The translations under genes and the position numbers were made by a program. Under the pieces are notes generated by a model. The model made no database searches. It was given only the letters and a program-made list of their open reading frames with translations, and had not been told where the DNA came from. Of a DNA stretch of 29,821 nt, positions 6,628 through 18,627 are shown piece by piece. Origin of the DNA: a virus. The stretch spans positions 1 through 29,821 of IMG/VR virus record IMGVR_UViG_3300046675_000110; one strand, 5' to 3'. The stretch's first letter is position 1. Every line of letters starts with the position of its first letter.

Positions 6628-7461
6628 TTATCCTTGCCCATAGGGAACCATATTGTCGCGACCGGTCCAGCCGGATCCTGCTGGCGGCACGTAGCCAGCG
6701 GCGAGTGGCGAACCGGCACCAGCAGAAACGCTGCCAAACTGGGTGGGTGTGAAATACCTGCCCGCCGCGCTGATCAGCCCGCCACTGCCGCCGCCGTAGC
6801 CGCTGGTCATGCCCTGACCCGCGAGCGCCTGGGTGATGCCTTGCACCATGTTGCTCTGCGCGGTGCCCTGCGCCATCGCGCTCGCCGCCTGGAGGCTGCC
6901 GAGCTGGGTGTCGGTCGCGCCCACCTGCTGGCCGATCTGGCCGCCAGACTGAGCGATCGTGCCAGCCGACGTCTGCCCCATGCCAGCGAGGTTCTGCAGC
7001 GCGCCGATGTAGTTGCTAAAGTTGCTGGCGGCGTAGTTGCCCGCCATCTTGCCGATACCAGCCAATTCACCCGCGCCGACGCCGCCACCCTGCCCGGTAG
7101 ACGCGTTGCGTCTGATTGATTCCTCGAATGTTTGTTCTGGGAACGTGTAGAACGGCGTCTTGGTGAACTGGTTGTAGCTCGCCAGCGCGCCGCTGCCGCC
7201 GGGCATCCCGCTCGTGGTCGCAGGACCGGCGCCCGCCAGACCGGTGAATTGCGCGAGGCCGCCCAGCGCCTGCTGGCCGGTGGTGACGTAGGGCATGAGG
7301 TTGGTCTGCGTGGTGTCGTAGACGCCCTTCTGGAAGCCTAGCGCATCCCGCATGGGCCCCGCGCCAGCTTCCGCTGCGTTCTTAGCGGCATTGCTCTGGA
7401 TCATGCCGCTGGCGACGCTACCGGCCGCAGCAACGCCCGCAGCGGCGAGAACAAACCCCAT
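6628..7461 (-). CDS. DNA transfer/ejection protein, P22 gp7-like
   Basis: This 277-residue Gly/Ala/Gln-rich protein resembles phage 'DNA transfer' proteins. It has a small-residue hydrophobic N-terminus (MGFVLAAAGVAAAGSVASG), a QSNAAKNAAEAG helix, then LMPYVTTGQQALGGLAQFTG. The pattern continues with FEESIRRNAS, a Gly-rich turn, and NFSNYIGALQNLAGMGQTSA, matching the usual order of these proteins as I recall it. It would be packaged in the capsid and leave with the DNA. I chose the ATG at 7461 because it overlaps the upstream TAA (TAATG). A longer frame reaching 7578 would add 39 Arg-rich residues that lie wholly inside the acetyltransferase gene. Its place before two large internal proteins is the P22 order 7-20-16. 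Confidence 0.75.
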   Translation of the reverse strand: MGFVLAAAGVAAAGSVASGMIQSNAAKNAAEAGAGPMRDALGFQKGVYDTTQTNLMPYVTTGQQALGGLAQFTGLAGAGPATTSGMPGGSGALASYNQFTKTPFYTFPEQTFEESIRRNASTGQGGGVGAGELAGIGKMAGNYAASNFSNYIGALQNLAGMGQTSAGTIAQSGGQIGQQVGATDTQLGSLQAASAMAQGTAQSNMVQGITQALAGQGMTSGYGGGSGGLISAAGRYFTPTQFGSVSAGAGSPLAAGYVPPAGSGWTGRDNMVPYGQG

Positions 7462-8053: not shown

Positions 8054-8704
8054 CTACATAGGCTGCGGCAGAACCGCCAGACTTCCATACGCGCTGATCG
8101 CGCCGCTGAACGTCGCCCTGACATTGAGATACACAGGCGTCCCGACAGGGAAGAACAGCACCCTGGCGATGCTGCCAATCGTCAAATCCGCACCGATGAC
8201 CGAAGGAATAGCGCCAGCTCCGAACCAACCGGTGCCGAACGCGCCGGGCGCTGTCTCGATCGCGCCAGCCGTGATGCCGACCGAGACACTGGCCACGGTC
8301 ACCGAGCCGGTGCCGGTCAGGCACAGCGTGCCGATCAGCATGTTGTTGCCGCCGCTGACTAGACTGATGCTGGTGACCCCGGCGACCACGCCCGACGTCA
8401 GCGGCACCGCCCCGGCCAGATCCAGCTCGGTGAACTGTGGCTGCAGGCGGGAGAACTTGTCGTTGGTGCTGGCGACCGATGCCGCGAGCCCGACGGTCAG
8501 CGTGGTGATGTGGCCGTCGATCGTGGTGATGGCCGTGGTGTTGGCGGTGACCTGGGCCTGCAGCGCGGTGAGATCACCCGTGTTGCTGCCGTGCGAGGCG
8601 CTGAGCCGCTGCAGATACTGGTAGAATTCCTGGGTCGCGAACGCACCGTTGCCCTGCACTGTGGCAATGGGCCTGTCGCCATAGACAATGCCGGTGCCCG
8701 ACAT
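8054..8704 (-). CDS. Candidate tail-needle / tail-tip protein (gp26 position)
   Basis: This is a 216-residue protein. The first 35 residues (GTGIVYGDRPIATVQG, then FYQYLQRLSA) lead into a short coiled-coil-like region at about 42-85 (LTALQAQVTANTTAITTIDG). The rest is beta-rich and ends in hydrophobic strands. P22 gp26, the needle that plugs the tail, contains a similar ITANTKAIT-type coiled-coil stretch and follows gene 10 in the P22 order 4-10-26. This gene sits after the gp10-like gene and its two satellite adhesin genes. The helix here is much shorter than in gp26, so it may instead be a plug, fibre or spike tip. The ATG shares one base with the upstream stop (TGATG). Role inferred from position and a short motif. 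Confidence 0.5.
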   Translation of the reverse strand: MSGTGIVYGDRPIATVQGNGAFATQEFYQYLQRLSASHGSNTGDLTALQAQVTANTTAITTIDGHITTLTVGLAASVASTNDKFSRLQPQFTELDLAGAVPLTSGVVAGVTSISLVSGGNNMLIGTLCLTGTGSVTVASVSVGITAGAIETAPGAFGTGWFGAGAIPSVIGADLTIGSIARVLFFPVGTPVYLNVRATFSGAISAYGSLAVLPQPM

Positions 8705-9225
8705 CAGCTCGCCATACCCTGGTCGATGTCGATGTATATACCGATGACATTACGCCTGACTGGATCGGTGCATTCCAGCTTGATCACCCGCTGGCGGAAC
8801 TGGCCCATCTTGAGCCAGCGCAGGCGCGTTTTGTAATGGCCGAGGGCACCGATGTCGCGCGGCTTCACCAGGGTCGACCATGTGCGTGCGCCGTCGTCGC
8901 TGACGGTGAGGCGCCACTGCGGTCGCTGCGCGGGGCCGGTTGCCTCGGTGATGATGTGCGGCGTGCAGCCGGGACCGGCCGCCGGATCGATCTCGCCGCT
9001 CACCACGAACGCACCGCCGTTGCCGTTGTTCTGCGGGAAGTCGAGCGGTGGCCCGAGGGTGGTCAGATAGACCGCTGGCTGCTGCGCGAACGGGATCTCG
9101 CCGCTGACGCCCATCCACTGCGGGGTGCCACTCAGTGATACGAACAGTTGGCGCGTGGCTGCCACCGAGAGATCGACGAAGCCGTGTTGCGGTTGGAACA
9201 GCAGCTCGCTGTCGGTGAGGGTTTC
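8704..9225 (-). repeat. Duplicated C-terminal module, copy 1
   Basis: This segment encodes 173 residues from ETLTDSELLF to QGMAS and the stop. Aligned by hand with copy 2 at 10455-10973, 126 of about 172 positions are identical. Similarity begins abruptly at ETLTDS; the residues before it are unrelated in the two genes. The DNA around that edge is almost identical as well, so the limit looks like a recombination boundary. The module includes QWRLTVSDDGARTWS and RLRWLKMGQ motifs. Confidence 0.9.
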
Positions 9226-10455
9226 ACCAGCGGGCACGTCGTCCTCAATATCGACAATGCCGTAGATGGTCGAGCCGTCGCGGCTCATCCCCCACGCTTC
9301 GCCTTTGTACTCACCGAATTCGGTTGCAGCGTCTGGCAGCGTCGGCAACTGGTGCAGCGTGCCACTGTCGTCCCAATAGATCGCCCAGCGGTAGTTGTTA
9401 GTGCCACCCTCGTAGCCGCCGCCGCAGACGCGTGCGCCGGTAGCCGAGCAGCCATAGGCTTCCGTATTATTGCCGCCCGCCAATGCTCCAAGATCAGTGA
9501 TGGTGATGCCGTTCCATCGGGCGCCGTGGTAAGCACCCGCAGATGTGTGGCCAAAGCCAACGGCAATGGGCTCAATGGTGCCTCCAGCCACCCATGTTAC
9601 GACTGGCACTGATACGTCGGTAACGGGCTCCAAGCCGTTAAGGAAGTGCTGTACACCATAGACGGTGCTGCCAAGACCACCAATGGACGTGGTCGTCAGA
9701 CTGTCCCAGTAACACGGTCGATCGCTCCCGGTCGTGTCGTCCCAACAGATCCCCCAGATTATAGTTCCTGCGTCATTACAAGCTTGCGCTTGGTAAGGTA
9801 AAACTGAAACGAAACCCTGATAAAGCGTATGGAACGTCGTCCCTGTACCAAGCCAGAAGCCAGCGCTGAAATTATCCGCTTCGCCGACGATCAGAGACCC
9901 ATCCGCCGAACAGCATAGACCACCAGACCCCGTGCGGATTGTGGTCGATGGTAATGCAGTCGGGACCGTGACATCCCAGCGCGTCGCTCTGTCTGGTAGA
10001 GATAGACTGCTGATGCTGCTTCCAACGATACGGGAGGCATCGTCAGAACAGAGCCGATCAGATACGCCACCGCTTATACCGGTGCCGGGTAGAGCGCTAC
10101 TAAAACCAGCAACGGCGTAAGTTGCTGCTGGCAGCAAAGAGGTTTCCATCGAACCGCCGGATGTCCATTGGACAGGACCACCATCGGTGCCGAGGATAGT
10201 CGACGCATCAGGCACACAATAAACTGCCGATGACGGTGTCGTCGTGTGCGCAAGAGATGTGACAGTCGTGCCTTCCCATTTGACCGCCACTTGATTGCCA
10301 TCCGCGTCAAGCGCCCAACCGACAACGGTGTTGCCATCGCTGCTGACGTGTGCAGGAGACGACACCTGGACCCCTATTGGGGCACCCGGCAGCAACTCCA
10401 GCCGTTCGCAAACAGTGAACGGATCGCGCCAGACGACACCAACACGCGTGACCAT
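8704..10455 (-). CDS. Adhesin-like virion protein: HAF-type propeller fused to gp10-like C-terminal domain
   Basis: This 583-residue protein has two parts. Residues 1-410 hold about seven repeats of roughly 45-55 residues, each with a small-residue/DG turn, a V/I-V/I-G strand and an aromatic strand: SSDGNTVVGW, CSDDASRIVGS, CSADGSLIVGE, CSATGARVCGG, MSRDGSTIYGI. This is the HAF-repeat pattern and suggests a seven-bladed propeller. Residues 411-583 form the C-terminal domain with SDDGARTWS and TDPVRRNVIG, recalling the end of P22 gp10-like stabilization proteins. The next gene upstream has a close copy of this domain behind an unrelated N-terminus. I infer that the C-terminal part docks on the tail and the propeller binds something outside. 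The ATG overlaps the upstream TGA by one base (TGATG). Confidence 0.75.
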   Translation of the reverse strand: MVTRVGVVWRDPFTVCERLELLPGAPIGVQVSSPAHVSSDGNTVVGWALDADGNQVAVKWEGTTVTSLAHTTTPSSAVYCVPDASTILGTDGGPVQWTSGGSMETSLLPAATYAVAGFSSALPGTGISGGVSDRLCSDDASRIVGSSISSLSLPDRATRWDVTVPTALPSTTIRTGSGGLCCSADGSLIVGEADNFSAGFWLGTGTTFHTLYQGFVSVLPYQAQACNDAGTIIWGICWDDTTGSDRPCYWDSLTTTSIGGLGSTVYGVQHFLNGLEPVTDVSVPVVTWVAGGTIEPIAVGFGHTSAGAYHGARWNGITITDLGALAGGNNTEAYGCSATGARVCGGGYEGGTNNYRWAIYWDDSGTLHQLPTLPDAATEFGEYKGEAWGMSRDGSTIYGIVDIEDDVPAGETLTDSELLFQPQHGFVDLSVAATRQLFVSLSGTPQWMGVSGEIPFAQQPAVYLTTLGPPLDFPQNNGNGGAFVVSGEIDPAAGPGCTPHIITEATGPAQRPQWRLTVSDDGARTWSTLVKPRDIGALGHYKTRLRWLKMGQFRQRVIKLECTDPVRRNVIGIYIDIDQGMAS

Positions 10456-10973
10456 CAGCTCATCCCCTGCCCGACATCGAGATAGACGCCGATGATGTTC
10501 TTGCGCACCGGGTCGGTGCTCTCCAGCCTGATCATACGCTCACGGCTCTGCCCCATCTTCAGCCAGCGCAGCCGGGTGAGGTATTTACCCAGCTTGCCCA
10601 TCGAGCGTGGCTTCACCAGCGTGCTCCAGGTGCGGCCACCGTCGTCCGACACCGACAGGCGCCACTGCGGATCGGCCGCCGAGCCAGATGCCTCGGTGAC
10701 GATGTAGGGCGTGCAGCCTGGGCCAGCGGCGGCCTCCAGCGTGCCGGTGGGCGCGAACCCGCCGCCATCGCCATTGTTCCCGGCAAAGTCCAGCGGCGGC
10801 CCCTGTGTGGTCAGGTAGACGGCCGGTGTCGAGCCGAACGGCAGCGCGCCGCTCGGTCCCATCCACTGCGGTGTGCCGCCGAGCGAGATGAACAGCTGGC
10901 GCGTAGCCAGCACCGACAAATCGACGAAGCCGCGCTGCGGCTGGAAGAGAAGCTCGCTGTCGGTGAGGGTTTC
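10455..10973 (-). repeat. Duplicated C-terminal module, copy 2
   Basis: This segment encodes 172 residues from ETLTDSELLF to VGQGMS and the stop. It is the closest match to copy 1 (8704-9225), about 73 percent identical by hand count, and shares the TGATG stop-start junction with the following gene. The segment in between, 9226-10454, belongs to the unrelated propeller part of the next gene. Confidence 0.9.
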
Positions 10974-12140
10974 AAACGCACCACCCGCCAGAGTGATATC
11001 GATCGTCGCATAACAGATGCCACTGCGTTGTTGGATCACTCCACCAAAGGTGCCAACAGTGCCACCAGAACCAAAGCCGCCGCTACCAAAAGAGAAGCCT
11101 TTCGGGTAAAACCGCTCGACACCTATTGACGCATCGTAGTCACCGACATGAACCTCAAACAAAACTGGACACACAAGCTGGTCAGACACGCTGGTGTTCA
11201 GCGACAGGCCGCCCGGCACGGCGTTGCCGATATTGTTGAACTGGATCGACGCAGGATCAATGCCCCATGGGTTCGTGAGATCCGCGAGGCCGCCATACGA
11301 AATTAGTGCCAGATCACACTCTTCAGGACCAACGCCAATTCCAGTCACTGACCACGTCACGGAGTAAGCCGCCGTTGGCGTTATTACTGATGGTGCCAGC
11401 GCGTAGAATAGCTCGGCATTTGTCGTGCAGTAGTGCTGCACGCTATGGATCGTATCCCAGTTTATGGTGTTGAACGATCCACCGCCAAGACGGGTGAATG
11501 TCAGGCCTGGAAAGGTGAAATGATCAACCGAAACCGGTGACGGATATGGTAGTGACGTCGCAGTCCCTGTAGAGAATACCAACGCAAACACGACGGTGTT
11601 AGGTTGTGTTGTCCCGAACTCCTCGGAAGAAACAGGCGTGACGACGCCCCAGCTTCCCGAGGCGCCACCCAGGTTGTCTCTGTTTGGCATCTGCGTTGAA
11701 CCGAGCAGCGTCACCCCGGCATACCAAGCCCCTTGATTGGTGCCATGTACCGGATTGGTATTCCATGCATCGTCAAATTGCGGCGTGTAGGGTTTTATGA
11801 TCCCAGGCACCTCCGTGACGACAGCAAAGACATCAAAGCTGTCCGATGAACTGCTGCTGCCGTCGTTATGGTAGGCTACCCGACCATCATCGATGTCCTG
11901 TTGGGTGAACTGCGTGGTTGGGGATCCGTCCTTAAGGATACCGCCATGACTGGGTGGTGAAGTGACGGTGTAGGCCACGTTGCCATCGACGATTGGTGCG
12001 CCTGGGCCAATATAAACACCGCCGCCATCGGTGCTGCCGTAGCTGTAATTCATCTGGATCGAGGTGATAGTCGTCGTAACACCGATCCCCGCATTGATGA
12101 AGCCGCTGACTCTGAGTGTCGGATCGGCTGGATCAGCCAT
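10455..12140 (-). CDS. Adhesin-like virion protein: CSPG repeat plus gp10-like C-terminal domain
   Basis: The 561-residue reading starts at the ATG at 12140 (MADPADPTLRVSGF). A frame reaching 12239 would add 33 Arg/Cys-rich residues inside the upstream gene. Residues about 55-105 match the CSPG/cadherin-like repeat (YTVTSPPSHGGILKDGS, FTQQDIDDGRVAYHNDGS, DSFDVFAVV), common in large adhesins. Residues 110-385 are beta-rich, with no family I know (SWGVVTPVSSEEFG, HYCTTNAELFYALAPS). Residues 390-561 are the duplicated gp10-like C-terminal domain (SDDGGRTWS, STDPVRKNIIG, VYLDVGQGMS). The protein is probably on the virion, held by the C-terminal domain. The start codon shares a base with an orphan TGA that belongs to a scar of a lost copy of the same module. 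Confidence 0.75.
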   Translation of the reverse strand: MADPADPTLRVSGFINAGIGVTTTITSIQMNYSYGSTDGGGVYIGPGAPIVDGNVAYTVTSPPSHGGILKDGSPTTQFTQQDIDDGRVAYHNDGSSSSSDSFDVFAVVTEVPGIIKPYTPQFDDAWNTNPVHGTNQGAWYAGVTLLGSTQMPNRDNLGGASGSWGVVTPVSSEEFGTTQPNTVVFALVFSTGTATSLPYPSPVSVDHFTFPGLTFTRLGGGSFNTINWDTIHSVQHYCTTNAELFYALAPSVITPTAAYSVTWSVTGIGVGPEECDLALISYGGLADLTNPWGIDPASIQFNNIGNAVPGGLSLNTSVSDQLVCPVLFEVHVGDYDASIGVERFYPKGFSFGSGGFGSGGTVGTFGGVIQQRSGICYATIDITLAGGAFETLTDSELLFQPQRGFVDLSVLATRQLFISLGGTPQWMGPSGALPFGSTPAVYLTTQGPPLDFAGNNGDGGGFAPTGTLEAAAGPGCTPYIVTEASGSAADPQWRLSVSDDGGRTWSTLVKPRSMGKLGKYLTRLRWLKMGQSRERMIRLESTDPVRKNIIGVYLDVGQGMS

Positions 12141-12159
12141 CAGCTCATGCCCTGCCCGA
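12137..12159 (-). repeat. Scar of a third C-terminal module copy
   Basis: These 23 bases match 10452-10474 at 22 positions. In both places the minus strand reads as the codons for GQGMS, a TGA, and an overlapping ATG of the next gene. Here the GQGMS reading is not in the frame of the preceding gene, which stopped at 12184, so it is a non-translated remnant. It shows that a complete module, or at least its end, once stood before the gene that starts at 12140. Confidence 0.75.
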
Positions 12160-12183
12160 TGACGGTTTGAAAGCCGTATGGCA

Positions 12184-13866
12184 TCAGCCGCTCGCTGGCA
12201 GCAGCAGCCAGTCGTCCCCCGGCGCATTGGCGATCGCATTGGTGCTCGACCACGTCAGCACCACAGGCGTCAGCTCGGTGTCGCCATACCCCACCGTGCT
12301 CACCCAGCACTGGATCTGATGGCTCGGTGTATACACACTGATGCCGATCCACACCCAGGTCGACCACGCCGACCACTGATACTCGGCATCGAGGATCGGT
12401 GCCGCATCGGCATCGAACAGCTTCACCACGATCTGGTTGTCGGTGCCCGGTGAGCTGGTGTCGTTGGCAATGGTGATCTGCATCGAGCTGTTGCCGAACG
12501 TCAGGCCGCGCGTCGTGCCGTCATCCGGCAGCAGCACCCAGTCGCTGAACACGAACCCGTTGAAGCTGTCGCCCACCCCGGTCAGCGCGCCCACCGTCTC
12601 GATCTGCGATGGCGTCGTCAGGGTGATCGCGGCGGGGCAGAACTCTTCCGTCACCTGCTGGGTGTAGGGCGCGCCGACGCCGCTCTCGACGTCGATCTCA
12701 AACCGCTTCAGGAACGCGCGGCGGCGATCGCTGTGGATCGGTGGCCCGACGATCAGCGCCCGCATGGTGTGGCCGAACTCGGTGAACACGTTGTTGTTCA
12801 GCTGATCGACCCGGCCCGACAAGCTGTCGCCGAACAGGATCTCAGGATACTGCTCGATCGATGAGCTGGCGTTCAGCGCGCAGTTGACCCGCCAGCGGCC
12901 GATGCTGCTGTCGGCATTATCGGCGGTCCAGCTCTCCCGCTCGTGCCAGCGCTTGGTGGCGAGATCCAGCACCCATGTCGCCTTGGCAGCGGGGAACGTG
13001 ATGGCGATCAGCTTGTGACCCTGCCACGTGTAGCTGAACGCCCTGGCATACTGGTGCCCGGTGTATTTTGCCCACTGCGCCTCGATGGCGTGGTTGCTCA
13101 TCCGCATCGGGACGAAGCTCTCCAGCCGCCAGAAGATCAGATCATCGCCCAGGAAGAACAAAGTGTTGTCTTCCAACACAAGGCTGTAGGGCGCCATCAG
13201 ACCGCGTTGGATCAGTGCGCCGAAGCTGCGGCTGAACGGGAATGCCGGTGGCGCGTTGGCGGCGTTATACCAGACCTCACCGACCTTCTCGCCGAACACG
13301 AACAGCTGCTCGTGGCTGTTGGCGATGCCGACAATCAGATCGCTGGTGGTGCTCTTGGTGGTGAAGTTGAGTGGGGGCGCCGGATCGACACCATCGGGAC
13401 CAATCAGCGGATCGGTGCCGTTCCAGAATGGCTGGCTGACAAAGAACCGCGTCGTGCCGCGCACTGAGAACACGAAGAACGTGTCGTAGTAGGTGACGGT
13501 GTTGCACGGCGGGAACGACGGATCGGTGATCTGATGCACGCCGGATGTGCTGTTGTAGGTCCAGCCCGAGACCCCATCGACCCAGCAGATCGTGGTGCCG
13601 TTGTTGGCGATCGAAACACCGTTGGGGCTGACTGAGGTGCGGCCGAGGAAGAACGCGGTGCCGAAGTGATCGAGGTGATAGAGGCCGTCGTTGGTGAGCG
13701 CGTAAACGAAGCCGCCCATCGCGGTGAACGCCATGACGGCACTGCTGTCGCCGCAGACCGTGAACGGCGCGGTGCCGGGCGCCGTCCAGATCCCGACCGG
13801 GGCTTTGTCCTTGGCGTCCTGGATGCCGGTCTCGGCGAGCACGTTCACTGCCCGCGACGCATTCAT
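12184..13866 (-). CDS. Packaged-DNA stabilization protein, P22 gp10-like propeller, with foreign C-terminus and damaged 5' end
   Basis: The 560 residues from the first usable ATG match the gp10-like family, which seals the portal and holds packaged DNA. Motifs include RAVNVLAETG near the N-terminus, RSFGALIQRG, NTLFFLGDD, MSNHAIEAQW, WQGHKLIAITFP, RWHERESW and EFGHTMRAL, ending the family region at DVESGVGAP (about residue 400). As I recall, homologs then continue into an SDDGG-type domain. Here residues 405-560 are a different beta-rich, lectin-like segment (FSDWVLLPDDGTTRGLTFG, WVWIGISVYTPS). Upstream of the ATG the same frame still reads AVPQVTDWLAQSYVSNSIP, which looks like the true N-terminus. 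No ATG, GTG, TTG or CTG lies between it and the stop at 13978-13980, and the ATG at 13866 has no ribosome site. The gene may be poorly expressed or use an unusual start. Confidence 0.8.
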   Translation of the reverse strand: MNASRAVNVLAETGIQDAKDKAPVGIWTAPGTAPFTVCGDSSAVMAFTAMGGFVYALTNDGLYHLDHFGTAFFLGRTSVSPNGVSIANNGTTICWVDGVSGWTYNSTSGVHQITDPSFPPCNTVTYYDTFFVFSVRGTTRFFVSQPFWNGTDPLIGPDGVDPAPPLNFTTKSTTSDLIVGIANSHEQLFVFGEKVGEVWYNAANAPPAFPFSRSFGALIQRGLMAPYSLVLEDNTLFFLGDDLIFWRLESFVPMRMSNHAIEAQWAKYTGHQYARAFSYTWQGHKLIAITFPAAKATWVLDLATKRWHERESWTADNADSSIGRWRVNCALNASSSIEQYPEILFGDSLSGRVDQLNNNVFTEFGHTMRALIVGPPIHSDRRRAFLKRFEIDVESGVGAPYTQQVTEEFCPAAITLTTPSQIETVGALTGVGDSFNGFVFSDWVLLPDDGTTRGLTFGNSSMQITIANDTSSPGTDNQIVVKLFDADAAPILDAEYQWSAWSTWVWIGISVYTPSHQIQCWVSTVGYGDTELTPVVLTWSSTNAIANAPGDDWLLLPASG

Positions 13867-13942
13867 CGGAATGCTGTTGCTGACGTAGCTCTGTGCGAGC
13901 CAGTCGGTGACTTGAGGAACGGCACCTACTCCCTTATGCTGC

Positions 13943-13978
13943 GAGCAGTGCTCGGGGCGCGAACCCCTGGCACTGCTC
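13943..13978 (+). repeat. Stem-loop between the gp10-like gene and the HNH gene
   Basis: GAGCAGTG (13943-13950) pairs with CACTGCTC (13971-13978). The stem continues through C-G and T-G pairs and one mismatch to GGGG/CCCC, closing a CGCGAA loop. The T-G wobble pairs in RNA only from the plus strand, which favours a role in the HNH gene leader, 28 bases ahead of its ATG. No T-run follows. It may mark the edge of the inserted HNH element. Confidence 0.5.
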
Positions 13979-14005
13979 TAACCTTAGCCTGTGGAAGGGA
14001 AGGCT

Positions 14006-14530
14006 ATGGCTCCGAAGAAGCTGCCACCAGCGCGCAAACTGCGCCAGTTGTTCGACTACGACCAGGACAGCGGGACGCTCACCAGGAAACCAGCTCCGCG
14101 ATCGGCTTTCAACAGCGACAGAGCCTGGGCAGCACACAAACAACGCATAGGTGAGGCCAGCAGGTCTACGGATGGCCAGAGATATGTCCGCGTTTGTATA
14201 GAATACAGCATCTTCAAAGCCCATAGAATCATTTGGAAGATGGTCACCGGAAGAGAACCGCCACCCATAATTGATCATATCAATCGCAACACTAAAGACG
14301 ACAGATGGTGTAATCTTCGACAGGGAACTAGTTCGCAAAGTAATGCCAACCGCCGGTCTATTGGGAGGAGCCTGAAGGGTGCGCACTTCAGGGGAAGATC
14401 GTGGGAATCCTCGATTCAGGTGCGAGGACATTATCGGTATCTCGGCACCTTTCCCACCGAGGCAGCCGCGCACGCCGCCTACTGCGAGGCCGGTCGGAAG
14501 GCATTCGGTGAATTCTTCCATCCAGGTTAG
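14006..14530 (+). CDS. HNH homing-type endonuclease with AP2 DNA-binding domain
   Basis: This 174-residue protein is read from the ATG at 14006, which is preceded by GGAAGGGAAGG; a GTG at 13991 in the same frame has no better site. Residues 15-110 form the HNH_3-type nuclease: FDYDQDSGTLTRK, KAHRIIWKMVTG with His73, IIDHINRNTKDDRWCNLR with Asp90, His91, Asn94 and Asn103. Residues 121-172 are an AP2-like domain (KGAHFRGRSWESSIQV, YRYLGTFPTEAAAHAAY). Proteins of this type are mobile genes that nick or cut a phage target and spread by repair. It lies head-on in the operon, is less GC-rich than its neighbours, and overlaps the stop of the gp4-like gene. Its other side abuts the damaged start of the gp10-like gene, which is probably its insertion site. 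Confidence 0.88.
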   Translation: MAPKKLPPARKLRQLFDYDQDSGTLTRKPAPRSAFNSDRAWAAHKQRIGEASRSTDGQRYVRVCIEYSIFKAHRIIWKMVTGREPPPIIDHINRNTKDDRWCNLRQGTSSQSNANRRSIGRSLKGAHFRGRSWESSIQVRGHYRYLGTFPTEAAAHAAYCEAGRKAFGEFFHPG

Positions 14531-16209
14531 GTGTTCCTGCTTGCCGGGTAGCTTGATACGCCAAACATCACACTCTCAGGTTCTCTATCCCACGCTCTTG
14601 CGATCATAAGCTTCTCGTCTGCGAGACCCTTCACTAGCTGGATGGAATAGTCTCCCTTCACGGCAGCCCGACGTTCCGAATGCTCAGGCCAGATCTCGAC
14701 CGCGAGGTTATAGCGTATGGCGTTCTGCCATTCGTCCGGAAACGTATCAATTGTGGTCAGATCGGTATATGTCGTCAGGGGTAACTGCACCGTCATCTGC
14801 ACCGCCTGATCAGCATCGCCAGGGGTGACCCAGGTATGGAATTCAGAAAATCCTAATTTAGGATCGAAAAAATACCCAGTCACCTGCCCTGAGTTGTCTT
14901 TATTTGTTTGGAAACTGTAATCGATGCGGCTGAACACGCTCAGTGGTGTTTCGATCTTGGTTGGGATCCCACGGTTCCCAGGATACACCACGCGACGGGC
15001 TGCAGGGGCCTTCAGGGGCCGTGGCAGATCATTGGTGTAGCTCAGCACCCTGGCGCCCGAGGACGCCTGTGAGGGCAGCGGGTCGGTCGTGGTGAGGGTG
15101 TTTGCCGATGTGATGGTGGCGACGGTGGTCCAGAGATAGCGTTGCGGCTGTCCTGGCTGGGCATCGAGCAGGACGGCGATGTGATCGGCGACTGTCATGT
15201 CGCTGGTAGAGTTCACCGTCAGCGCCGTCGTGCCAGCCACCGCGTCAGCGGTCAGGAACGTCTGGGTGTAGCTATCGGAAGCGCAGCAGTGATCCGGCGA
15301 GCCGATACCGATGCGGTAGGTTCGTTGCCCAGGCTGCAGGAACAGGATCGCATCCCGTTGGGTCCAGACCCGGATATCCATTCCCTGCCACTGCTTGACC
15401 ATGGCATTGAGGCTGTAGAACCCGTTGTTGATCATGCCGAGGGAGGGCGTTTCCTGGGCGCCACAGCCGCCTGCGAGGCGCAGCGCGCCCGCGATCAGCT
15501 GATACACCGGCTGCGAGTAGGGCAGCGTGGTGGTGCCCTGCAGCTCGGTATCCCAGCCCTTGACCACGGCGAGCTTCTCGTCAGCCAATTCCTTGAGGAT
15601 CTTCAGTCGCTCGGCGGGCACGTCGTATTCCGGCCCCAGCTCGACCGCGAGCGAGAACCGCAGCGCGCTGATCCACTCCTGCGGGATGTCGGCGGTGTCG
15701 CGCTGGGTGTCGAACGACTGCAGCGGGCGCTGCCCGACGAACTTCGCCACCCCGTCGACCAGCGGCGTCGGATAGACCGTCAGCACGCCGTAAGGCAGCT
15801 GTGGGTCGTAGAAGTATTGCGCCGGGACGCCCTCGGGGACCGCCTTGTTGGACAGGTTGGCATAGTCGAGCCGCGACATCAGGATCAGCGGTGTCTCATC
15901 ATCGCCGAACATAAATCGCCCTGCGGTGATCTTCAGCGGGCGCGGCGTGGTCGACAGGCCCGGCGAGCCGATGCCGATCAGATACGTGGCTTGACCACCG
16001 AGCAACGGCACCTCGATCGTGGTCTGGGTCCAGACGTGCAGGCCGTTTGCCTGCCACGCATGGATCATGCCGTTCAGCGACGCCAGGGCGTCGTCGTATT
16101 CCTCAGCGGGCGGTACTTCACCGGTTTGGATGGCGCCGATCAGGCGCATCGCGCCCGTGATGATCTGGAACGAACTCGGGTTGTAGGTGTAGTCGCCGCT
16201 GGTTGCCAC
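14527..16209 (-). CDS. Head-completion / tail accessory protein, P22 gp4-like, two fused copies
   Basis: The 560-residue protein starts at GTG (16209) behind GGGGGA. It contains the gp4-like domain twice. Copy 1, residues 9-222: YNPSSFQIITGAMRLIGAI, SLNGMIHAWQANGLHVWTQ, YLIGIGSPG, EWISALRFSLAVELGPE, LADEKLAVVKGWDTE. Copy 2, residues 231-548: YSQPVYQLIAGALRLAGG, SLNAMVKQWQGMDIRVWTQ, YRIGIGSPD, EWQNAIRYNLAVEIWPE, LADEKLMIARAWDRE. Copy 2 carries an extra beta-rich insert of about 80 residues (312-392). In P22, single gp4 subunits assemble on the portal and accept gp10. A fused pair could give half as many chains per ring or add a second layer; this is inference. It is followed by the HNH insertion and the gp10-like gene, the P22 order 4-10. 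Confidence 0.82.
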   Translation of the reverse strand: MATSGDYTYNPSSFQIITGAMRLIGAIQTGEVPPAEEYDDALASLNGMIHAWQANGLHVWTQTTIEVPLLGGQATYLIGIGSPGLSTTPRPLKITAGRFMFGDDETPLILMSRLDYANLSNKAVPEGVPAQYFYDPQLPYGVLTVYPTPLVDGVAKFVGQRPLQSFDTQRDTADIPQEWISALRFSLAVELGPEYDVPAERLKILKELADEKLAVVKGWDTELQGTTTLPYSQPVYQLIAGALRLAGGCGAQETPSLGMINNGFYSLNAMVKQWQGMDIRVWTQRDAILFLQPGQRTYRIGIGSPDHCCASDSYTQTFLTADAVAGTTALTVNSTSDMTVADHIAVLLDAQPGQPQRYLWTTVATITSANTLTTTDPLPSQASSGARVLSYTNDLPRPLKAPAARRVVYPGNRGIPTKIETPLSVFSRIDYSFQTNKDNSGQVTGYFFDPKLGFSEFHTWVTPGDADQAVQMTVQLPLTTYTDLTTIDTFPDEWQNAIRYNLAVEIWPEHSERRAAVKGDYSIQLVKGLADEKLMIARAWDREPESVMFGVSSYPASRNT

Positions 16210-17751: not shown

Positions 17752-18627
17752 CTATGCCAGGATCATAGCACGGGCCTGCGCGCCGCCGACTGGCGGCACG
17801 ATCTGCGCGATCTGCATCACGGCGCCGACGTCGCTGATCATCTCGGTGCGGGTGGTGTTGTCCTGCACCAGCACCACCGAGCCGATGCCAGCGCGAGAGC
17901 CCGACAGCATCATCGAGGGCGTCAGCGGGGTCGGATACGTGGTCTGCACCGACGCCCAGTGCTCCAGCGCCACCTGGGTGACCTGGGCGGCCGGGTTGGT
18001 GGTCAGCCAGTGCTCGACCGCTGCCTGGGTGGCGAGCGCATTGGTGCCGATCGAGGCGCCTGCGGTGAAGCCCGAGGTGAAGCCGCTCGGCACCGTGCCG
18101 GTGAAGGCGGTGTCGCCGAAGTTGGCGGTGATTGCGTCCAGATTGGCGCCCATGATCGCCAGCGGAAATGCTGGGACGCCAACACCGGAACTTGTGATCG
18201 CTACGCCGCCAGCGCCAGTCGCCGGATTGGCTGTCGCACTGCCGTTCCAGTTGCCAGCCGCCGCGACGCGAAACCACGTTAGGCGAGCACCAAAATCCAC
18301 GGCTACGCTGATTACGTCAGCAGCAGCACGAGCACCCAGCGTAGATCCGCTGCTGACGCCATCGACGTTGATGACGCCGCTCTTAATGACGACGCACGTC
18401 CCGATCGATGTCGGGACAGGAGTGGTCACATTTGGTGTACTGAAACCGACCCCGGTATTGGCGTTGCCCCATACCGTCGGTGTGCATTCCCAGTAGAATT
18501 TTCCGGTGATCTGCTTATCAACAGCCCTGACCCAGGCTGATGCGCCACTCGCAACAGCGATCAGATTGAGGCCACTCAGCGTGACGTTGGCGCTCTTATC
18601 GCTCCCATTCCATTGGGTGTTCGCCAC
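17752..18627 (-). CDS. SPRY/B30.2-like domain protein, probable virion adhesin
   Basis: This 291-residue protein starts at GTG (18627), nine bases from the upstream TGA, with only a weak ribosome site. Residues about 40-195 follow the SPRY pattern: GKFYWECTPTVWGNANTGVG, DVISVAVDFGARLTWFRVAA with W-N-G turn, FPLAIMGANLDAITANFGD, and TVPSGFTSGF. SPRY folds are protein-binding beta sandwiches; in phages they occur in tail and decoration proteins. Residues 200-291 are a helix-rich tail (QAAVEHWLTTNPAAQV repeated as QVALEHWASVQTT) that may attach it to the particle. It is one of a run of four surface-type proteins between capsid and tail genes. The ligand is unknown. Confidence 0.7.
   Translation of the reverse strand: MANTQWNGSDKSANVTLSGLNLIAVASGASAWVRAVDKQITGKFYWECTPTVWGNANTGVGFSTPNVTTPVPTSIGTCVVIKSGVINVDGVSSGSTLGARAAADVISVAVDFGARLTWFRVAAAGNWNGSATANPATGAGGVAITSSGVGVPAFPLAIMGANLDAITANFGDTAFTGTVPSGFTSGFTAGASIGTNALATQAAVEHWLTTNPAAQVTQVALEHWASVQTTYPTPLTPSMMLSGSRAGIGSVVLVQDNTTRTEMISDVGAVMQIAQIVPPVGGAQARAMILA

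Follow-up and report, generated by a model that had tools for sequence, protein, structure and literature searches.

The nozzle protein gp10 of P22, with its counterparts Sf6 gp8 and the Pam1 and Pan3 nozzles (PHROG 578, PF11134), is made as one chain that carries both a propeller part and a C-terminal SDDGG part. Modular tail fibres and tailspikes keep an N-terminal anchor and exchange their C-terminal heads. Fibre attachment is known to proceed through such N-terminal anchors or through dock loops on the nozzle. The nozzles of T7 (gp12) and SU10 likewise consist of a propeller and a platform, and their fibres are separate and attach to a dock loop or dock domain on the nozzle outside (PMC6702177, PMC9509320). 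In both phages the platform binds the adaptor ring (PMC6702177, PMC9509320), and in T7 three strands contributed by the first 45 residues join the C-terminal domain to form it (PMC6702177). Duplicated adaptors occur in the dual tubeA podoviruses PhiGT1 and Bcep22 as two adjacent paralogs, for which a reduction of the tail symmetry has been proposed (PMC10386132).

Here we describe a locus of a short-tailed phage, in a 29.8-kb virus record (the window, meaning the whole stretch of DNA analysed) in which the propeller and SDDGG parts are both homologous to those of the P22 gp10-type nozzles, but the platform is broken after the strand FEIDVESGVG and its end is found on two head-bearing proteins. 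In contrast to T7 gp12 and SU10, the binding protein itself appears to supply a part of the platform, and the anchor, which is N-terminal in modular fibres and tailspikes, is placed here at the C-terminus and consists of a nozzle protein segment. The adaptors are also duplicated, but as two domains in one chain, next to a nozzle that is split. Judged from sequence, the parts belong to a known family, and what appears to be new is that the C-terminal anchor is part of the nozzle. We consider it probable, from sequence comparison and structure models, that the three genes encode one nozzle of the P22 gp10 kind, with the C-termini of the adhesin-like proteins finishing the platform in trans.

Division of the nozzle family over three genes

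The genes and their parts are listed in Table 1. Based on profile search, PHROG 578 ('head closure Hc3', the gp10/Hc3 nozzle) was divided over three proteins of the window, with its last part present twice. The propeller protein matched profile positions 21-404 of 486 (E 9e-70), and the second and third proteins matched positions 402-473 only (E 8.5e-7 and 4.5e-8, respectively). This confirmed the proposal of an earlier note, made from the sequence, that a gp10-like protein is broken up here, and it bore out the statement that the propeller gene is gp10-like yet has no SDDGG ending, as the match stops at profile position 404. That the three proteins hold complementary parts of the profile was counted in favour of one nozzle.

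Table 1. Coordinates of the nozzle locus and its parts in the window
Feature	Position	Strand	Basis or remark
gp4-like adaptor gene (as in P22), two tandem adaptor domains in one chain	14527-16209	-	phrog_12985, phrog_637; first in reading order
HNH gene	13991-14530	antisense	between adaptor and propeller genes
Propeller gene (called ORF)	12184-13866	-	after the adaptor in reading order
gp10/Hc3-type nozzle protein, propeller part and N-terminal platform segment	12667-13920	-	PHROG 578, N-terminal extension
Platform strand FEIDVESGVG	12673-12702	-	alignments; strand 403-412 of the L006 model
con domain, about 160 residues, beta-rich	12187-12666	-	12 aligned sequences; L094 model
Second gene, adhesin-like (as called)	10455-12239	-	next after the propeller
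Head of second gene	10971-12140	-	Cadherin_3/CSPG-like stretch at about 11832-11984
lk part of B-type module, second gene	10674-10970	-	lk profile; 100/99 pairing with the other lk of the window
B-type SDDGG half-platform (sd), second gene	10458-10673	-	gp10 profile 402-473
Third gene, adhesin-like	8704-10455	-	last in reading order
Head of third gene	9223-10455	-	HAF-type repeats possible, TIGR02913 below cut-off
lk part, third gene, B-type in sequence (converted or recombined)	8926-9222	-	lk tree, 100/99 and 97/95
A-type SDDGG half-platform (sd), third gene	8710-8925	-	A clade, 97/91

The propeller protein showed 31% identity to stabilization proteins of Vibrio phages. Its frame was homologous upstream to about position 13920 (VPQVTDWLAQSYVSNSIPMNASR), whereas the called ORF begins at 13866; position 13920 reads GTT and the extended frame has no ATG, GTG or TTG start. 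Immediately upstream (region 13921-14530) lies the antisense HNH gene (PF13392, E 2.7e-13), which occupies the point where the adaptor and propeller genes touch in relatives. The check with the profile PF11134 (Phage_stabilise) suggested in the earlier note had a divided outcome, as the window protein gave no match but the canonical relatives L041 and L044 matched with 38 bits against a cut-off of 25. FEIDVESGVG is the last canonical piece on the propeller chain of the window, and the break follows directly after it. In place of the gp10 ending, with its SDDGG segment, the chain continues with a domain that we call con, which is conserved in 12 aligned sequences, is present in all split propellers and was modelled in relative L094 with a pLDDT of mostly about 80-93. 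Pfam and PDB sequence searches with con gave no match, and its beta-rich predicted fold suggests a lectin-like domain.

The C-termini of the second and third proteins were 70% identical over 185 residues (E 5e-88), and 73% identical over the 172 residues named in the earlier note, as claimed there. Neither protein contains the nozzle beta-propeller, and the match to the gp10 family was limited to their ends. A profile of the SDDGG segment built from the adhesins (A1) matched the C-termini of the solved Pan3 (9vyg) and Pam1 (7eeq) nozzles with E 1.8e-4 and 4.9e-4. A chance resemblance of SDDGG to the Asp-boxes of sialidases was ruled out, since about 70 residues match the end of the family and solved nozzles outrank sialidases. 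The family phrog_19101 likewise ends in SDDGG. On the adhesins the SDDGG segment (sd) is always preceded by a stretch of about 100 residues (lk) that has no counterpart in fused gp10. Such a conserved pair of lk and SDDGG could fold alone, and together with the conservation of con in all split propellers this would agree with another reading, in which SDDGG was co-opted as an independent anchor or assembly domain elsewhere on the tail and the propeller and con alone form the nozzle.

The neighbouring adaptor protein consists of two halves that matched each other with E 2e-21 and 2e-15, and we propose this tandem adaptor as the neighbour of the platform. Two-domain adaptors were also found in many con-bearing relatives, namely L003, L004, L005, L008, L027, L030-L033 and L094, and three domains in L034 (932 aa), whereas canonical relatives with a fused nozzle protein, including L006, have one adaptor domain. 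The association is not strict, as L016, L028, L029 and L096, with split or one-chain nozzles, have one domain.

Position of the break in the platform

We modelled the fused protein of relative L006 with 31 sequences (mean pLDDT 78, pTM 0.81). Residues 1-496 of the model superposed on P22 gp10 (8eap) with Z 36.9 and an rmsd of 2.5 over 443 aligned residues, and on Pan3 with Z 37.6; Sf6 gp8 and Pam1 superposed too. The fold of P22 gp10, ending included, was thus recovered in the fused relative L006, the only protein to which this result applies, and the SDDGG segment did not come out as structurally unrelated to the gp10 ending, an outcome named in the earlier note as speaking against its idea. 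Many unrelated WD40 and lyase propellers aligned just to residues about 44-379 of the model, which places residues about 385-497 and the N-terminus outside the propeller, where the platform lies in T7 and SU10.

The break corresponds to a site after strand 403-412 of L006 (FEIGVESGVG) and before strand 431-437 (PSWRLSVSDD). The model places this site within the platform, in a loop predicted with low confidence. The SDDGG 'domain' of the earlier note is homologous to the gp10 ending as claimed, but appears to be half of a platform domain inside which the break falls. The platform strand and the N-terminal segment that are left on the propeller protein are equally conserved in split and fused proteins. 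Given this conservation and a break inside the platform, we infer that the missing part is supplied in trans by the C-termini of the adhesins. A strand still conserved before the break argues against SDDGG as an independent anchor.

The one-chain protein of L094 (1200 residues, modelled with 49 sequences) gave a low overall pTM of 0.41, with a good propeller and con and a poor head. The model could be aligned to 437 of the 471 residues of P22 gp10, and the alignment extends from residue 1 of the model to residue 1195; the propeller side is finished by about residue 386, which leaves 51 or more aligned residues beyond it. This fits an SDDGG segment that returns to the platform about 740 residues further along the chain, a placement that is partly informed by the fused homologs contained in the alignment and as such no independent proof.

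Fused, one-chain and split forms in relatives

A translated search of 50,697 deposited phage records gave 39 that matched the propeller and 21 that matched the adhesin C-terminus. In these 21 phages the match to the SDDGG end begins a few bases after the propeller match, in the same annotated gene, and in about 49 IMG/VR contigs a single ORF of about 470 residues encodes both parts, with one SDDGG segment per fetched stretch. The rule given in the earlier note, that the two parts normally sit in one protein, thus holds in both sets. The closest canonical relatives, L006 and L007, encode a fused 500-residue protein with a propeller about 67% identical to that of the window, so close homologs of this propeller do carry the SDDGG segment, contrary to an outcome that the note had named as refuting its idea.

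Among IMG/VR contigs and Acetobacteraceae prophages we found a graded series of forms. The first is the fused propeller-sd protein. The second is one chain of about 1206-1279 residues with the order propeller-con-head-lk-sd, in which con comprises about 155, the head about 475 and lk about 95 residues; its six members are L030, L031, L033, L034, L094 (Gluconacetobacter azotocaptans) and L096 (G. johannae). In the third, two genes encode propeller-con and head-lk-sd (L016, L027, L029), and in the fourth, propeller-con is accompanied by two head-lk-sd genes (the window, L004, L005, L008 and probably L003, which is cut by the contig end). The gene boundary is at the identical place in all eight split contigs, which come from different metagenomes. 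The module was matched in 14 of 397 sampled Acetobacteraceae genomes, mostly by open frames of about 1200-1280 residues, and the scan of genome contigs found prophages of Gluconacetobacter only. Among cultured phages none with the split layout came up, and searching them at the DNA level gave nothing; no deposited phage record covers con or these heads, and the open-access literature yielded no split nozzle of this kind.

In some Acetobacteraceae prophages (L012/L095 near position 6790, L032, L114) a frameshift in the head region interrupts the one-chain gene, which may be decay, an error or a step towards fission. A weak match came from another genome of this family (L119), where the propeller ORF is partial and an SDDGG segment is encoded by a second, short ORF; this may be one more split or a prophage in decay.

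Breaks and inserts were also observed at other sites. The propeller gene of L078 and L081 ends after WHERESWGSxWV (L006 residue 332), inside the propeller, and the next gene encodes a head of about 400-655 residues followed by the equivalent of L006 residues 340/349 to 500, which comprise the last part of the propeller and all of the C-terminal part; in L077 and L079 the propeller gene ends at the same motif, with no second gene before the contig end. This fission is independent of the window-type split. One-chain inserts of about 330-550 residues, alike in those compared, were found in L070, L074, L075 and L093 between L006 residues ~52-70 and ~101-137, that is between the N-terminal segment and the propeller. 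Together with this second fission, the inserts on the N-terminal side show that head insertion into the nozzle protein recurred at several sites, with gene fission following at two.

Module types, heads and a possible shared platform

The SDDGG modules of the two-module genomes fall into two types. Type A forms a clade in the sd tree (97/91), which contains the third gene of the window and the second genes of L003, L004, L005 and L008. The remaining sd sequences have the pattern RS[IM]G..G.YL[TS]RLRW.KMGQSRERM in common (type B); only type A was supported as a clade in the sd tree. The four complete two-module genomes (the window, L004, L005 and L008) each combine a single A with a single B module; the window has them in reversed order relative to the others. 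The two lk parts of the window are mutual closest relatives (100/99) within the B-type lk group (97/95), so the third gene is likely a recombinant of a B-type lk with an A-type sd.

The sd segments had pairwise dN/dS values of 0.06-0.29 (type A) and 0.19-0.49 (type B), compared with 0.17-0.48 in the propeller and 0.22-0.64 in con. The SDDGG ends are under purifying selection and constrained at least like the propeller, while the heads differ freely. Gene decay or an assembly error without function, which could be suggested by head frameshifts in a small number of prophages (L012/L095, L032) and by the lack of a standard start in the window's propeller gene, was rejected on the basis of the purifying selection in all parts tested and the conserved boundary in the eight contigs; we regard this explanation as largely refuted and highly improbable. 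The constraint on SDDGG also speaks against an independent anchor elsewhere on the tail, as do the one-chain forms, which hold con, lk and SDDGG together with the propeller, and we judge that alternative to be unlikely.

Comparison of the heads confirmed that the second and third proteins have unrelated N-termini. The second gene likely starts at the ATG at 12140 and not at 12239. Its 'CSPG repeat' was supported by a match to PF16184 (Cadherin_3, E 1.2e-9, 38.5 bits against a gathering score of 25.5), which covers just 51 residues. The 'HAF-type propeller' proposed for the third gene was not established, as TIGR02913 gave a sub-threshold match (E 0.022, 14.7 bits against a curated cut-off of 22.65) and the Pfam search no match. 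Heads were found to change between module types: the B-type module of L004 and the A-type module of L008 carry heads that share 88% identity over 370 residues, and the head of the B-type module in the window has 40% identity to its counterpart on the A-type module of L005. The B module gene of L008 is bare (178 residues), and the second module gene of L005 has only a short N-terminal stretch before the module. Heads of L016, L027 and L029 have a stretch of about 70 residues in common, at about 43-50% identity, with a separate tail-like protein encoded upstream in the window (17752-18627, minus strand), which suggests that head domains are taken from a shared stock. The idea of the earlier note that the module accepts different heads is thus favoured by the one-chain forms, the head interchange between types and the bare module; docking on the tail is the inferred part of it.

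In the explanation that we favour, the propeller protein would retain the beta-propeller, the N-terminal segment and the first C-terminal platform strands, and the remaining platform (SDDGG, about 72 residues) would be supplied in trans by the C-termini of the two adhesin-like proteins. These would thereby be anchored on the nozzle outside with their heads pointing outward, presumably for receptor binding. Given six nozzle subunits in each tail, the six platform sites would be divided between A and B. The forms seen in relatives suggest the order of origin: a lectin-like con, a head and a linker would have been inserted in a platform surface loop of a fused gp10, the inserted chain cut into two genes, and the head-linker-SDDGG gene duplicated, after which the copies would have diverged into A and B and exchanged heads.

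A variant compatible with this explanation is that one type completes the platform and the other occupies a second site. It would account for the pairing of one A and one B, with type-specific residues, in all four complete two-gene relatives, and for the persistence of the types in the window despite the swapped order and the homogenised linker. However, a B module that is bare in L008 and nearly so in L005 is easier to read as a filler of shared sites, and both types keep the full canonical SDDGG pattern; we hold two separate sites to be rather doubtful. If A and B do share the platform, three A and three B C-termini could alternate in a mixed ring over the tandem adaptor, with each C-terminus closing one half-platform that the propeller protein leaves open, an arrangement that we put forward only tentatively. 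Such a ring would convert the six-fold nozzle into a three-fold display of two heads, with the bare module as a spacer in some relatives.

If platform completion in trans is true, the nozzle wall would consist partly of exchangeable receptor-binding proteins, and adhesin attachment would follow another principle. Two binding specificities in one phage would thereby be explained, and receptor contact could be coupled directly to DNA channel opening. In the ordered forms, from fused through one-chain with insert to split and duplicated, the stepwise origin of a machine part made of several proteins can be followed.
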